Below, one piece after another: positions 2,428-5,590 of a DNA stretch of 10,000 nt. Every line of letters begins with the position of its first letter. Position 1 is the first letter of the stretch. This DNA comes from Chloroflexota bacterium (GTDB lineage Bacteria > Chloroflexota > Anaerolineae > Anaerolineales > Villigracilaceae). The notes beneath the pieces are model-generated. The model was given only the letters and a program-made list of their open reading frames with translations. It was not told where the DNA came from and searched no databases. The stretch lies in NCBI GenBank assembly GCA_020217065.1, contig JAIWOB010000129.1, forward strand, positions 1 to 10,000. Direction: 5' to 3'. A program made the position numbers and the translations under genes.

Positions 2428-5130
2428 TTACTTCAATTTTTCTTCCAGAACGTTCGGCAATTTAGCGAACGCTTCTTTGGCGTTTCCGGTCAGGCTTCCC
2501 TGCGCCAGGTTGGGACGTCCGCCGCCTTTTCCGCCGATGCCCAGGATAAGGTCGCCAGCCTTTAGCCCGCGCTTAACCGCGTCTTCCGTCACAGCCGCAA
2601 TCACAACGGAGCCGGTCGTTAAAACAACCGCGCCATTCTTCGGGTATTTCTCGCGGAATTTGTCGGCAAGGGAACGCAGGGTTTCCACGTCGGCGTTGGG
2701 GATTTCCGCGCCTAGAACGTTCACGTCCTTAATCCGTTGAACGTTGGCAAGTTGGTCGTTAAAAGCCGCGAAAGCCGATTGCGAACGAAGGTCTGCGAGT
2801 TTCTTTTTGAGGTCGGAAACTTCGTCCTGTAAGGCTTCCACTTTCGCGGGGACTTCTTCCACGCTTGACTTCAACGCGCCCGCAGCCTGCTTCAGCGTTT
2901 TGAAGCGCTTCTGAATCAACTCGTAAGCGCCGCGCCCCGTCACCGCCTCGATGCGGCGAATCCCAGCCGCCGCCGAGCCTTCGCTGACAATAAGAAACGC
3001 GCCGACGTCAGACGTGCGCTCAAGGTGCGTGCCGCCGCAAAGTTCATAAGAATATCGTTCGTTCTCATCTTCAAGAATGGAAATGGTGCGGACAGTCTCG
3101 CCATACTTCTCGCCAAAGAGCGCCATCGCGCCTTCCTTGCGGGCTTCATCCAGCGGCTTGATTTCCTTGTGGACGGGCATGTCGGCGGCGACCGCCTCAT
3201 TGACCAATTTCTCGACGCGCTCGATTTGCTCGGAAGTCATGGCTTCGGGGTGGGTAAAGTCGAAGCGCAGATGAGTCGGCGCGACAAGGGAGCCCGCCTG
3301 CCGCGCATGCTCGCCGAGGACTTCATGCAGGGCTTTGTGTAACAGATGCGTGGCGGTGTGATTCCGCATGATGTCGTGACGGCGGACCATATCCACCTCG
3401 GCGACGGCTTTGTCGCCGACCTTAGGATGCCCCGAAATGACCTGCCCGACATGAGCGATGACGCCAGCGGCGGCGCGGCGGACGGCGGACACTTCAATCT
3501 CCCAATCCTTGCCGCGAATATATCCCTCATCGCCAACCTGACCGCCCGCTTCGATGTAGAAACCAGTCTTCGGCAGGATGACTTCAACCTGGTCGTCGAG
3601 GGACGCAGAAGAAACCGACTCGCCGTTGACAATCAACGCGAGGATTTCGCCCTCTACCTTTGCGCTGGTATAGGGGTCGTACTCCACGCCGCGCTCGTCC
3701 AACTTGCCCCTTGCCTGCAAATCTTTCAAAATGCCCGCAAAAAATTCTGAATCTTCGCCGCCCAGTTTGCCCATCGCCTTCCCGCCGCCGGAAGCCGCGC
3801 TATGTTCTTCCTTGGCGGCGTGAAAGCCCGCTTCGTCAACGTCAAGACCCTGTTCGCGGGCAATATCGCGGGAGATTTCAAAGGGCAAGCCGTAGGTGGC
3901 GTACAGGTCAAAGGCTTTGCGTCCGTCGAGGACTTTGGCGTTTGCGGCGCGAAGTTCAGAGAGGAGATTCTCCAGATGGGCGGCGCCAGCCTCCACCGTG
4001 CGCGCAAAACGGATTTCCTCGCGGGTGAGGTTGTCCAAAATTGTGGCGCGATTCTTTTCCAATTCGGGATAAAAATCTCCATACTGGGCGATGACCGCCT
4101 CCGCAACTTTGGCAAGGAACGGCTCTTTAAGACCAATCTTCGCGCCAAAGCGGGCGGCGCGGCGGACAACCATCCGCGTAATATAGTTGCGTCCGCCGTT
4201 GCCGGGGACAACGCCGTCGGCGATGAGAAAGGCGGCGCCTCGAACATGGTCGCAAATGACGCGGTAGGGCGTGAAGTCGGCAAGCATTTCCGCTTCGCTG
4301 TGACCGGTGAGAGAGCGCAGGACCTCCAACGAACCGCTAAAGAGGTCGGTCTTGTAGTTGGAGTCGACCCCTTGCAGTACCGCGACAATACGCTCGAAGC
4401 CCATGCCCGTGTCCACATGTTTGGCGGGCAGAAGTTCAAGGCGGCCGTCGTCGAACAGGTTGTATTGGATAAAGACGTTGTTCCAGAGTTCGAGGAAGCG
4501 CGTGCATTCGCCGTTGACTCCGCAGCGATGCGGCTGCCCGCGCAGGTTATCGCGCTCTTCGCCGAGGTCAATGTGGATTTCGGAGCAAGGTCCGCAGGGA
4601 CCCGTTTCAGCCATCTGCCAGAAGTTTTCCTTGCGCCCGAAGAAGAGAACGTGAGACGGGTCAAAACCGGGCTGGCGCTTCCAAATTTCCGCCGCTTCGT
4701 CGTCGCGCGGAATGTTGCCTTTGTCGTCTTCAAAGCAGGTGGCGTAAAGCCTATCTTTGGGCAATCCCCAGACTTCGGTGAGCAATTCCCACGACCAGGC
4801 GATGGCTTCCTTCTTGTAATAATCGCCAAAAGACCAATTGCCGAGCATCTCAAAAAAAGTGTGATGGGTATCGTCGCGTCCCACGTCTTCGAGGTCGTTA
4901 TGCTTGCCCGCCACGCGCATACATTTCTGGGAATCCACGGCGCGGGTATAGGGCTTTTTGTCCGTGCCGATAAAAACGTCCTTGAATTGCACCATGCCCG
5001 AATTGGTGAACAGCAGCGTGCTGTCGCCGCCCGGCACAAGGGACATGGAAGGCACGGCGGTATGCCCGCGCTCGACGAAGAAATCAATGAAATCCTGGCG
5101 AATCTGGTTGCCTGTTAGTTTTTTGCTCAT
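2428..5130 (-). CDS. alaS: Alanyl-tRNA synthetase
   Basis: Charges tRNA-Ala with alanine and hydrolyses mischarged Ser/Gly-tRNA-Ala. At 900 aa it matches full-length bacterial AlaRS (about 875). The class II catalytic core occupies roughly 1-250, with FTNSGMVQFKDVF (41-53), DVGRDDTHHTFFEMLGNWSFG (motif 2 area, 82-102) and TGMGFERI (241-248). The tRNA-recognition domain follows. The editing domain has the zinc and catalytic ligands HTATH (591-595) and CGGTH (698-702). A coiled-coil stretch (about 755-785) leads to the C-Ala domain with GIGGKGGGRPNLAQGS (864-879). A Cys-containing segment HRCGVNGEC (201-209) sits in the aminoacylation domain where the E. coli enzyme has a different loop. The ATG at 5130 has GGAG 6 nt upstream. 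Upstream lie two promoters and an Ala-codon leader with a terminator, suggesting regulation by alanyl-tRNA supply. Confidence 0.98.
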   Translation of the reverse strand: MSKKLTGNQIRQDFIDFFVERGHTAVPSMSLVPGGDSTLLFTNSGMVQFKDVFIGTDKKPYTRAVDSQKCMRVAGKHNDLEDVGRDDTHHTFFEMLGNWSFGDYYKKEAIAWSWELLTEVWGLPKDRLYATCFEDDKGNIPRDDEAAEIWKRQPGFDPSHVLFFGRKENFWQMAETGPCGPCSEIHIDLGEERDNLRGQPHRCGVNGECTRFLELWNNVFIQYNLFDDGRLELLPAKHVDTGMGFERIVAVLQGVDSNYKTDLFSGSLEVLRSLTGHSEAEMLADFTPYRVICDHVRGAAFLIADGVVPGNGGRNYITRMVVRRAARFGAKIGLKEPFLAKVAEAVIAQYGDFYPELEKNRATILDNLTREEIRFARTVEAGAAHLENLLSELRAANAKVLDGRKAFDLYATYGLPFEISRDIAREQGLDVDEAGFHAAKEEHSAASGGGKAMGKLGGEDSEFFAGILKDLQARGKLDERGVEYDPYTSAKVEGEILALIVNGESVSSASLDDQVEVILPKTGFYIEAGGQVGDEGYIRGKDWEIEVSAVRRAAAGVIAHVGQVISGHPKVGDKAVAEVDMVRRHDIMRNHTATHLLHKALHEVLGEHARQAGSLVAPTHLRFDFTHPEAMTSEQIERVEKLVNEAVAADMPVHKEIKPLDEARKEGAMALFGEKYGETVRTISILEDENERYSYELCGGTHLERTSDVGAFLIVSEGSAAAGIRRIEAVTGRGAYELIQKRFKTLKQAAGALKSSVEEVPAKVEALQDEVSDLKKKLADLRSQSAFAAFNDQLANVQRIKDVNVLGAEIPNADVETLRSLADKFREKYPKNGAVVLTTGSVVIAAVTEDAVKRGLKAGDLILGIGGKGGGRPNLAQGSLTGNAKEAFAKLPNVLEEKLK

Positions 5131-5162: not shown

Positions 5163-5171
5163 ATTATACCA
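5163..5171 (-). promoter_or_regulatory. Proximal alaS promoter (extended -10)
   Basis: On the minus strand TGG-TATAAT (5171-5163) is a consensus extended -10 box. The predicted start is near 5156, giving a 26-nt 5' UTR with GGAG before the alaS ATG. The -35 region is poor (TCTTCA at 17-bp spacing), which an extended -10 tolerates. It lies downstream of the leader terminator, so it would give alaS transcription that bypasses attenuation. Confidence 0.65.
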
Positions 5172-5241
5172 ATCAAAGGAAAGGATGAAGAATCAATTGT
5201 GAAAGATGAAAATTGTAGGGCGGGTCGTCCCTGCGACAAAT

Positions 5242-5276
5242 AAAAAAAAGCCCCGAACCTGTCGGTTTCGGGGCTT
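5242..5276 (-). terminator. Leader terminator (attenuator hairpin) upstream of alaS
   Basis: Minus-strand AAGCCCCGAA (5276-5267) pairs perfectly with TTCGGGGCTT (5257-5248), with a possible inner CC-GACA-GG extension, then a run of eight T (5249-5242, overlapping the stem end). This is a strong textbook intrinsic terminator. It sits 19 nt after the stop of the Ala-rich leader ORF and 112 nt before the alaS start codon, so it would abort transcripts from the distal promoter. It also could end read-through from the upstream uspA gene. Confidence 0.85.
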
Positions 5277-5294
5277 AAGTTTCTTTGCGCAGTC

Positions 5295-5378
5295 TCAAGC
5301 CGTGACAGGTTCGCAGAACGCGCGCGCAGCGGCGGCGGCTTGAGCGGCGGAATTGAGAGAATAGCCTTTTGTCTTCAT
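5295..5378 (-). CDS. Alanine-rich leader peptide upstream of alaS (27 aa)
   Basis: A short ORF, ATG at 5378 to TGA at 5295. Nine of 27 residues are Ala, clustered as AAQAAAAARA at residues 11-20; the peptide starts MKTKGYSLNS and ends FCEPVTA. Alanine codons before an alanyl-tRNA synthetase gene are what an amino-acid-specific leader peptide should show, so its role is probably to sense charged tRNA-Ala by ribosome position, not to act as a protein. It has no Shine-Dalgarno, and the predicted transcription start falls on or next to the A of its ATG, suggesting leaderless initiation. GCC, GCT and GCG codons are all used. A chance ORF in GC-rich DNA is the alternative, but the terminator and antiterminator pairing around it argue against that. 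Confidence 0.75.
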   Translation of the reverse strand: MKTKGYSLNSAAQAAAAARAFCEPVTA

Positions 5379-5379
5379 A

Positions 5380-5590
5380 GAGTAAATTATACCACGCGCG
5401 AAAATAACGACAGCCCTGAAAGACACGGCTTTCCTAAAATTCAAGCGTTTGCATGGAACGGGGCAAACCCGTCGTCCATTTTACCAACACGCTTCCAATT
5501 CGCCGGCGCAAATCGGAAGGTAAGTTATCCGCTCAGGACCGGAAGAAGGGCGGGTTCTTTCAGCCCTGAGGTTTTCCTTCGCTCTGCGAT
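5380..5590. other. Intergenic region between leader promoter and uspA stop
   Basis: Apart from the distal leader promoter, I see no gene here. There is one foldable segment on the + strand, ATGGA-ACGGG-gcaaa-CCCGT-cg-TCCAT (5453-5479), followed by TTTT; no + strand gene ends before it, so its role is unclear. A looser inverted repeat AGGGC/GCCCT at about 5548-5567 follows the uspA stop but lacks a T tract. CAGCCCTGA occurs twice (5411, 5561). Confidence 0.4.
5386..5413 (-). promoter_or_regulatory. Distal alaS / leader promoter
   Basis: Minus-strand TGG-TATAAT with -10 at 5391-5386 is the same extended -10 as in the proximal promoter. A weak -35 CTGTCG (5413-5408) is 16 bp upstream. The predicted start is about 5379, one base before the leader-peptide ATG. 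Confidence 0.65.

Follow-up and report, generated by a model that had tools for sequence, protein, structure and literature searches.

Ribosome-mediated attenuation and other sensors of tRNA charging

Classical ribosome-mediated attenuators are those of trp, his, leu, thr and pheST, in which a codon-rich leader ORF, RNA regions that pair as 1:2, 2:3 and 3:4, and an intrinsic terminator lie upstream of the gene; in enterobacteria, a Phe leader attenuator stands at pheS. The element described here, upstream of the alanyl-tRNA synthetase gene alaS in a member of the Anaerolineales, shares this layout and differs from the classical cases in its specificity (Ala, with a Tyr counterpart), its leaderless start, its occurrence in Chloroflexota and the presence of a downstream promoter for alaS. 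The T-box (RF00230) is likewise a sensor of tRNA charging that controls synthetase genes, but it binds tRNA directly, whereas the alaS element would need translation.

Proteobacteria and Actinobacteria offer the best-documented cases of ribosome-mediated attenuation (available text of PMC4833913), and cases in Firmicutes are also known (available text of PMC9413887). As far as the text covered extends, an actinobacterial survey gives candidate structures for trp, cys and leu genes, as well as T-boxes before isoleucyl-tRNA synthetase genes (PMC1262725). Another described system is alaL of Streptomyces lividans TK24, a 22-aa ORF with 6 Ala that lies before alaS and for which an attenuator was proposed from RNA-seq (available text of PMC8079986). 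It resembles the present element as a short Ala-containing ORF ahead of alaS, in an organism where several other leaders are reported to be leaderless, and it differs in phylum and in peptide; the likeness is one of description, and the text covered of that paper holds neither alternative RNA structures nor a comparative test for alaL (PMC8079986). A reading made earlier from the sequence of this locus alone (hereafter the sequence-only reading) had known of no control of alaS by a translated Ala leader and had suggested that this may be an undescribed regulator in its lineage; with alaL proposed earlier, the Chloroflexota leader is not the first of its kind. The leaderless actinobacterial attenuators more generally (leuL, trpL and thrL of S. 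lividans, and those of Corynebacterium) are similar, in the parts of these reports covered, in having the ORF at the 5' end of the mRNA and in controlling amino-acid or synthetase genes, while they respond, except for alaL, to other amino acids; here too the comparison is by description.

The leader of alaS in the window

The window, that is, the whole stretch of DNA analysed, is an entire contig of 10 kb from an incomplete genome (G000). Genomes of the same genus (57 in the sample) and of the wider family (120) served for comparison. The leader occupies positions 5394-5242 of the minus strand, upstream of alaS, and comprises an extended -10 promoter, a leaderless ORF, a 1:2 helix, an antiterminator and an intrinsic terminator. 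The features are as follows.

2428..5130, minus strand: alaS, alanine--tRNA ligase, 900 aa (TIGR00344 match of 858.9 bits, cut-off 457.05)
5386..5394, minus strand: predicted promoter P1, extended -10 TGGTATAAT (TATAAT 5391-5386, TG 5394-5393; a clear -35 was not seen)
5295..5378, minus strand: leader ORF MKTKGYSLNSAAQAAAAARAFCEPVTA with its stop, 27 codons, 9 Ala, predicted leaderless (sequence reading and Ala-rich ORFs at the loci of relatives)
5336..5344, minus strand: region 1, CTCAAGCCG, overlapping the Ala codons (9-bp pairing with CGGCTTGAG, 5302-5294)
5304..5313, minus strand: region 2, 5' part, the antiterminator strand CGAACCTGTC (perfect 10-bp pairing with 5263-5254)
5294..5302, minus strand: region 2, 3' part, CGGCTTGAG, including the leader stop codon (partner of region 1)
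5254..5263, minus strand: region 3, the antiterminator partner GACAGGTTCG, in the terminator loop and descending arm (CAGGT core)
5242..5275, minus strand: intrinsic terminator, stem 5275-5267 with 5257-5249, T8 at 5249-5242 (conservation of stem pairs)
5163..5172, minus strand: predicted promoter P2, alaS-proximal extended -10 TTGGTATAAT, 3' of the terminator (TATAAT 5168-5163; conserved box)

The sequence-only reading had named a promoter, the 27-codon ORF with its nine Ala codons, the 9-bp pairing of the Ala-codon region with the stop region, the perfect 10-bp antiterminator pairing and the terminator, and each of these was found again in the DNA as listed. It had been without P2, the leaderless start, the parallel leader before tyrS, and a predicted extension of the antiterminator in which, according to duplex prediction, GGCTT of region 2 (within CGGCTTGAG) pairs with AAGCC of the ascending arm of the terminator. 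The leader ATG (5378) lies 7 nt downstream of the P1 -10, thus the mRNA is predicted to be leaderless, with its start at, or adjoining, the A of that ATG.

A simple promoter and terminator scan of the window listed neither P1 nor the leader terminator, probably because P1 has no -35 and the terminator loop is above the limit of the scan, and the folding energy of the whole leader is unremarkable (z -1.61). The case depends on comparison.

Occurrence among relatives

Searched at the DNA level, 31 relatives yielded matches to the leader part in 7 genomes, the window's own included (some match was obtained in 10), and the first covariance model was built from those 7 leader sequences. By covariance model, the element was found with at least 108 bits in 29 of the 57 genus genomes, all 7 among them, and always upstream of alaS (29/29); each of the 29, again counting the window's genome, has a leader ORF of 25-27 aa with 6-10 Ala, and G038 carries an extra copy cut by a contig end. 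The N-terminal part of AlaS was detected in 47 of the 57 genomes, so by subtraction the leader is absent in 17 of the 47, which indicates that it is dispensable. Inspected by eye, the 17 leader-less upstream regions have P2 and lack an Ala-rich leader; a related terminator is found in G043 and G067, and an unrelated hairpin in G008 and G058.

In the wider family, a model of 30 sequences matched 32 of the 120 genomes at E<=0.001, in 5 of 26 genera. Leaders upstream of alaS were read in three further genera of the family, represented by G213 (g16), by G195, G287, G334 and G384 (g15), and by G410 (g212), while G439 (g209) matched weakly and the G043 element is degenerate. Outside the family, the first model gave seven weak matches, none with alaS downstream. 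Among the 80 loci kept, the named relatives nearest by AlaS come from Anaerolineales metagenome genomes, which would place the lineage in this order of Chloroflexota; one of them, L143, has the same kind of leader and an AlaS that is 78% identical to the window's in the best segment. On an AlaS tree obtained by a quick method, in which many forks are unsupported, the leader label requires 12 changes (G067 was grouped with G043, as the same kind of terminator occurs in both), and this pattern is read as a probable early gain followed by repeated loss.

Constraint on codons and on RNA

Enrichment of Ala codons in orthologous leaders, on which the sequence-only reading had staked its claim, is clear, since the 29 genus leaders hold on average 8.7 Ala in 25.7 codons (33.6% of residues). 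In the aligned ORFs, length differences are multiples of three, and the spacer between stop and terminator varies by single bases. Most of the 29 peptides end in PATA or PVTA. Diversity is flat across the three codon positions (0.224, 0.194 and 0.241), which means that ordinary purifying selection has left no sign on the peptide itself. In G213 the leader stop shares the first base of ACCTG and in G384 it comes before ACCTG, and in both ACCTG and CGGCTTGAG are unchanged; the retention of these segments where they are untranslated argues that the constraint acts on the RNA. The G384 leader has only 4 Ala in 21 codons, its RNA being kept.

In 30 aligned leaders, the 15 pairs of the 1:2 helix and the terminator taken together are standard in 99.3% of cells, the two parts of the 1:2 hairpin in 98.3% and 100%, and the seven counted stem pairs of the terminator in 100%. 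The five pairs of the antiterminator core are standard in all 30 leaders, and ACCTG and CAGGT are invariant. Double changes affect two pairs, both in the terminator and each in one sequence, and the antiterminator has no covariation in these 30 leaders; covariation at alaS is weak because the core pairs scarcely vary. Helix covariation, the other support to which the sequence-only reading had looked, is therefore borne out in part: the helices are conserved, their covariation at alaS is weak, and the sister leader of tyrS does covary. When the duplex of region 2 with the terminator was set against shuffled sequences, no more than 13 of the 30 leaders came within the best 5%. Taken with the recurrence of the layout in relatives, these comparisons support the Ala-codon attenuator put forward for alaS, and the sequences confirm the layout itself.

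Spacing, timing and the proposed mechanism

In 30/30 leaders, 23-32 nt separate ACCTG from the second Ala codon near region 1, and the distance from ACCTG to the stop is exactly 13 nt in 29 of 30, the exception being G213 (-2). With an assumed footprint size, these distances fit the earlier proposal that a stalled ribosome exposes region 2 and that a ribosome at the stop hides it. In a timing model using such an assumed footprint and transcripts ending just past region 3, the antiterminator reached P>0.5 in 29 of 30 leaders if the ribosome had stalled at the second Ala codon close to region 1. The number fell to 8 of 30 for ribosome-free transcripts and to 0 of 30 for a ribosome at the stop, the last count being a consequence of the mask itself. 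At full-length equilibrium with a stalled ribosome, the terminator prevails (mean 0.80 vs 0.10 for the antiterminator; exceptions G057, G063 and G213), the terminator means being slightly low since an indexing error set the terminator values of G007, G018 and G054 to 0.00 throughout, which leaves the antiterminator counts unaffected. Switching is thus reproduced by the co-transcriptional window only and not by the whole-transcript equilibrium model, and because equilibrium prefers the terminator even under stalling, antitermination would have to be kinetic.

The element is very likely a ribosome-mediated transcription attenuator for alaS. Its parts, their conservation, their position before the gene and their alternative pairings are read in the DNA of many genomes, and from them we infer the transcription starts, termination, translation, stalling and kinetic decision that such a device would involve. 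P1 would yield a leaderless mRNA on whose Ala-rich leader a ribosome starts immediately. When Ala-tRNA(Ala) is scarce, the ribosome would stall in the Ala codons and mask region 1, leaving region 2 to pair with the emerging region 3, and the terminator would come too late to prevent RNA polymerase from reading into alaS. When Ala-tRNA is plentiful, the ribosome would reach the stop and mask region 2, and the terminator would form. In an untranslated leader, the 1:2 hairpin would keep region 2 engaged, which, among the leaders modelled, tips the outcome towards termination in the majority but not in every case.

A sister leader before tyrS

The one-contig genome G062 was scanned on both strands in 80 spaced 20-kb stretches (1,600 kb), chosen regardless of gene content, for a TATAAT-like box 5-9 nt before an ORF of 10-45 codons with a terminator within 90 nt. 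Of the 157 leaderless short ORFs obtained, four have a terminator: the alaS leader, MSGEFRSCKYYFDTAP before a gene matching tyrS (TIGR00234), and two with the poorer boxes TATTAT and TATCAT, which look accidental. None of the 38 leaderless ORFs in the first 400 kb, a part that does not contain alaS, is Ala-rich, and the same scan retrieved all 30 known leader loci.

Tyrosyl-tRNA synthetase was detected in 50 of the 57 genus genomes. Among the best 30 of these 50 loci, a leaderless Tyr-rich leader ORF with a terminator precedes tyrS in 28 (22 by a stricter scan), each with 2-4 Tyr codons and an ATG start codon, or GTG in two cases; within the 30 loci it was not found in G001, which has no TATAAT, and G053, which has little upstream sequence. 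The leader of the window's genome is MTVVLFDNYDCYRP (G000:C154:3554-3647; L440, L376), and the 30 genus loci are L347-L376. Seven matches to a tyrS model were read, four of which lie before tyrS (G000, G195, G155 and G229) and three of which (G226, G117 and G222) were judged false; the leaders in other genera are MNFTFAFSYYYSHA in G155, MSAVCIANVYYSRHP in G195 and MEDRSRSLGYYYPCR in G229, the last from a weak match (E 0.066).

In the tyrS leader, region 2 reads GCGATGGTG or GCGGTAGTG, and its pairing with the terminator loop holds in 96.8% of cells. Covariation links one base of region 2 to its partner in region 3 (GC 18, AU 7, GU 2, other 1), with no shuffle of 500 as high in double-change cells, and the same base to its partner in region 1 (CG 13, UA 7, UG 6, other 2; 3 of 500 shuffles), these counts not being probabilities because the shuffles ignore relatedness. 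As a control, region 3 was slid by -3; pairing then persisted in 78.0% of cells, and the same 7 double changes were again there, as the loop repeats itself. When modelled as stalled, ribosome-free or with the ribosome at the stop, the antiterminator forms in 28, 19 and 0 of 28 leaders, respectively. It thus often forms without a ribosome, which makes the untranslated state less clear than for alaS, and in the G000 tyrS leader a stall brings no gain (0.76 without, 0.67 with). The RNA looks unrelated to that of the alaS leader, and an Rfam search of 20 tyrS loci returned tRNA genes only. Judged from these sequences, the tyrS leader seems to be a second attenuator of the same clade.

Two promoters and the alternative explanations

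A P1-type TATAAT lies 6-9 nt upstream of the leader ATG in all 30 aligned leaders, in keeping with the promoter claimed by the sequence-only reading, and 19 of them have TGn directly upstream of the box. The P2 box is conserved too, with a TATAAT 27-41 nt upstream of the alaS ATG in 30/30 leader-bearing loci, and TTGG ahead of the box in 29. A conserved predicted promoter behind the terminator means that the attenuator cannot be the sole control of alaS; it probably tunes an extra promoter, P1, beside the gene's own P2. P2 would be of a strength and constancy suited to a basal role, setting the basal level of alaS, and attenuated P1 would supply more on demand.

The presence of P2 in leader-bearing and leader-less relatives alike could also mean that P2 alone drives alaS, that the hairpin merely ends upstream or leader transcripts and that the ORF is incidental. 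The silence of the simple scan at the leader, and the absence of the leader from 17 of the 47 genus genomes in which an alaS start was detected, agree with this explanation, which we nevertheless consider improbable, since it leaves unexplained why 29 genomes have the Ala codons, why ACCTG and CAGGT are invariant, why region 2 is conserved where it is untranslated (G213 and G384), and why the same layout, with Tyr codons, recurs before tyrS. Still less probable is that the ORF, under a promoter of its own and with its own terminator, encodes a functional small protein such as an inhibitory or membrane peptide. The constant length of 25-27 aa and the similar ends of the 29 peptides would be in line with a protein, but codon diversity has no clear third-position excess, G213 and G384 have lost the C-terminal part while keeping its RNA, and among the inspected matches away from alaS the only related-looking one is a degenerate duplicate in G040 without an Ala run. 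A leader of the translational or reinitiation type, which would raise the translation of alaS and not its transcription, as proposed for leader genes near a structural gene (available text of PMC4833913), is scarcely credible, given that in the 30 leader-bearing loci the leader stop and the alaS ATG are 105-276 nt apart, with a terminator and second promoter in between.

Probable attenuators beside T-boxes in one lineage

All 57 genus genomes have T-boxes (RF00230) at E<=0.001, 53 of them above the cut-off, and the two examined (L291 and L292) lie upstream of pheS. At the gathering score, neither the T-box nor any other Rfam family was present in the window or at 20 further alaS loci, of which 8 have the Ala leader and 12 lack one or have a related terminator only. 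The best match to an Rfam amino-acid leader was RF00506 (Thr_leader) with 16.1 bits vs 55, and all 15 weak matches were below gathering. The same genomes having T-boxes, the lineage would combine two charging sensors, of which one is direct and the other acts through the ribosome.

Judging from its sequences, the clade thus seems to control two or more synthetase genes by ribosome-mediated attenuation and to have T-boxes as well. We consider it likely that this Anaerolineales family (Chloroflexota) has a set of ribosome attenuators of its own, leaderless and codon-specific, at aminoacyl-tRNA synthetase genes, covering at least alaS (Ala) and tyrS (Tyr), with T-boxes in the same genomes, and that the one at alaS is a charging-controlled promoter placed ahead of an existing basal promoter and repeatedly lost. 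Within one clade, then, the leaders of two synthetase genes would each match the codons of their amino acid, while their RNA designs show no apparent relation to one another. The coexistence of both sensors makes it testable why a given synthetase receives a T-box or a ribosome attenuator and, if the proposal is true, it implies that leaderless mRNAs are translated close behind RNA polymerase in these uncultured bacteria. The literature matches listed, whose coverage mostly stops short of subscription journals, contain no attenuator for Chloroflexota or for tyrS. Earlier alaS or tyrS cases could be included in a study, reportedly by Lopatovskaya et al. in 2010, that compares attenuation across amino-acid and aminoacyl-tRNA operons. 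The mechanism is known; what appears to be new is the leader family, the leader at tyrS and the setting in Chloroflexota.

Other alaS loci and minor observations

The idea that Ala leaders are widespread in the class was considered and rejected, as a looser scan of 198 alaS upstream regions flagged, outside the family, only L137, L032 and L262, the last being a 17-codon ORF without a box. With the leaderless box required, an Ala-rich ORF was present in 2 of 123 non-family Chloroflexota regions (L137 and L032), and the same 123 regions gave, as a control, one Gly-rich ORF, plus one Ser-rich ORF on the opposite strand; among 57 alaS regions mostly from other phyla, no Ala-rich ORF with a box was found (L184, from the Anaerolineales, is counted in both sets). 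The ORFs of L137 (MNIRKPAAASKAAAAIMLAAALKILMEPEKPDL) and L032 (MHRFKNSIITLNSKAAALTAAVSVGAVAGVPASEPQILA) are Ala-rich, leaderless and located before alaS in less related Anaerolineae, with RNA that looks unrelated. Their terminator pairing was equalled by 44 and 12 of 500 shuffles, which is suggestive only, and they are possibly independent Ala attenuators.

At the g15 loci L092 and L093, TCGGGACTG is by eye complementary to CAGTCCCGA at the ascending side of the terminator, an antiterminator design unlike that of the window; in the duplex test, 300, 184 and 281 of 500 shuffles did as well for the g15 leaders L092, L093 and L097, which is not significant, and 34 did so for L094 and 25 for L125. 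Upstream of alaS, L125 has a leaderless 38-codon ORF (MQLQPLNRASALCPATRKQQRGANAGRSFLSSAEPVTA) in which Ala codons are scattered, together with a terminator whose ascending arm contains CCGGCTC, the complement of a GAGCCGG close to the stop of the ORF.

Five weak model matches away from alaS (in G048, G034, G047, G056 and G043:C2) were inspected and rejected as plain terminators or chance. L201 (G040:C369:30722-30824) is a second, degenerate leader, MQQTFTSSRPLYTRSVTA, which lacks the Ala run, lies about 1.5 kb upstream of the intact one and precedes an apparent membrane-protein gene. The alaS frame is broken in G017 (G017:C2:310214-313045) and has an in-frame TGA in G039 (G039:C61:2116-3015), both possibly sequencing or assembly errors.

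At L102 (G043) and L122, a DUF4926 gene (PF16277, G043), found only in G043 and L122, lies before alaS, ends in ...HYEPAMA or ...HYEPATA, and is followed by a leader-like terminator. In L122, its last codons nearly match the 3' end of the leader (GAACCTGCCACGGC.TGA). On the sequence of these two loci, the 3' half of the leader (EPATA, stop and terminator) may derive from the DUF4926 gene, or the reverse.
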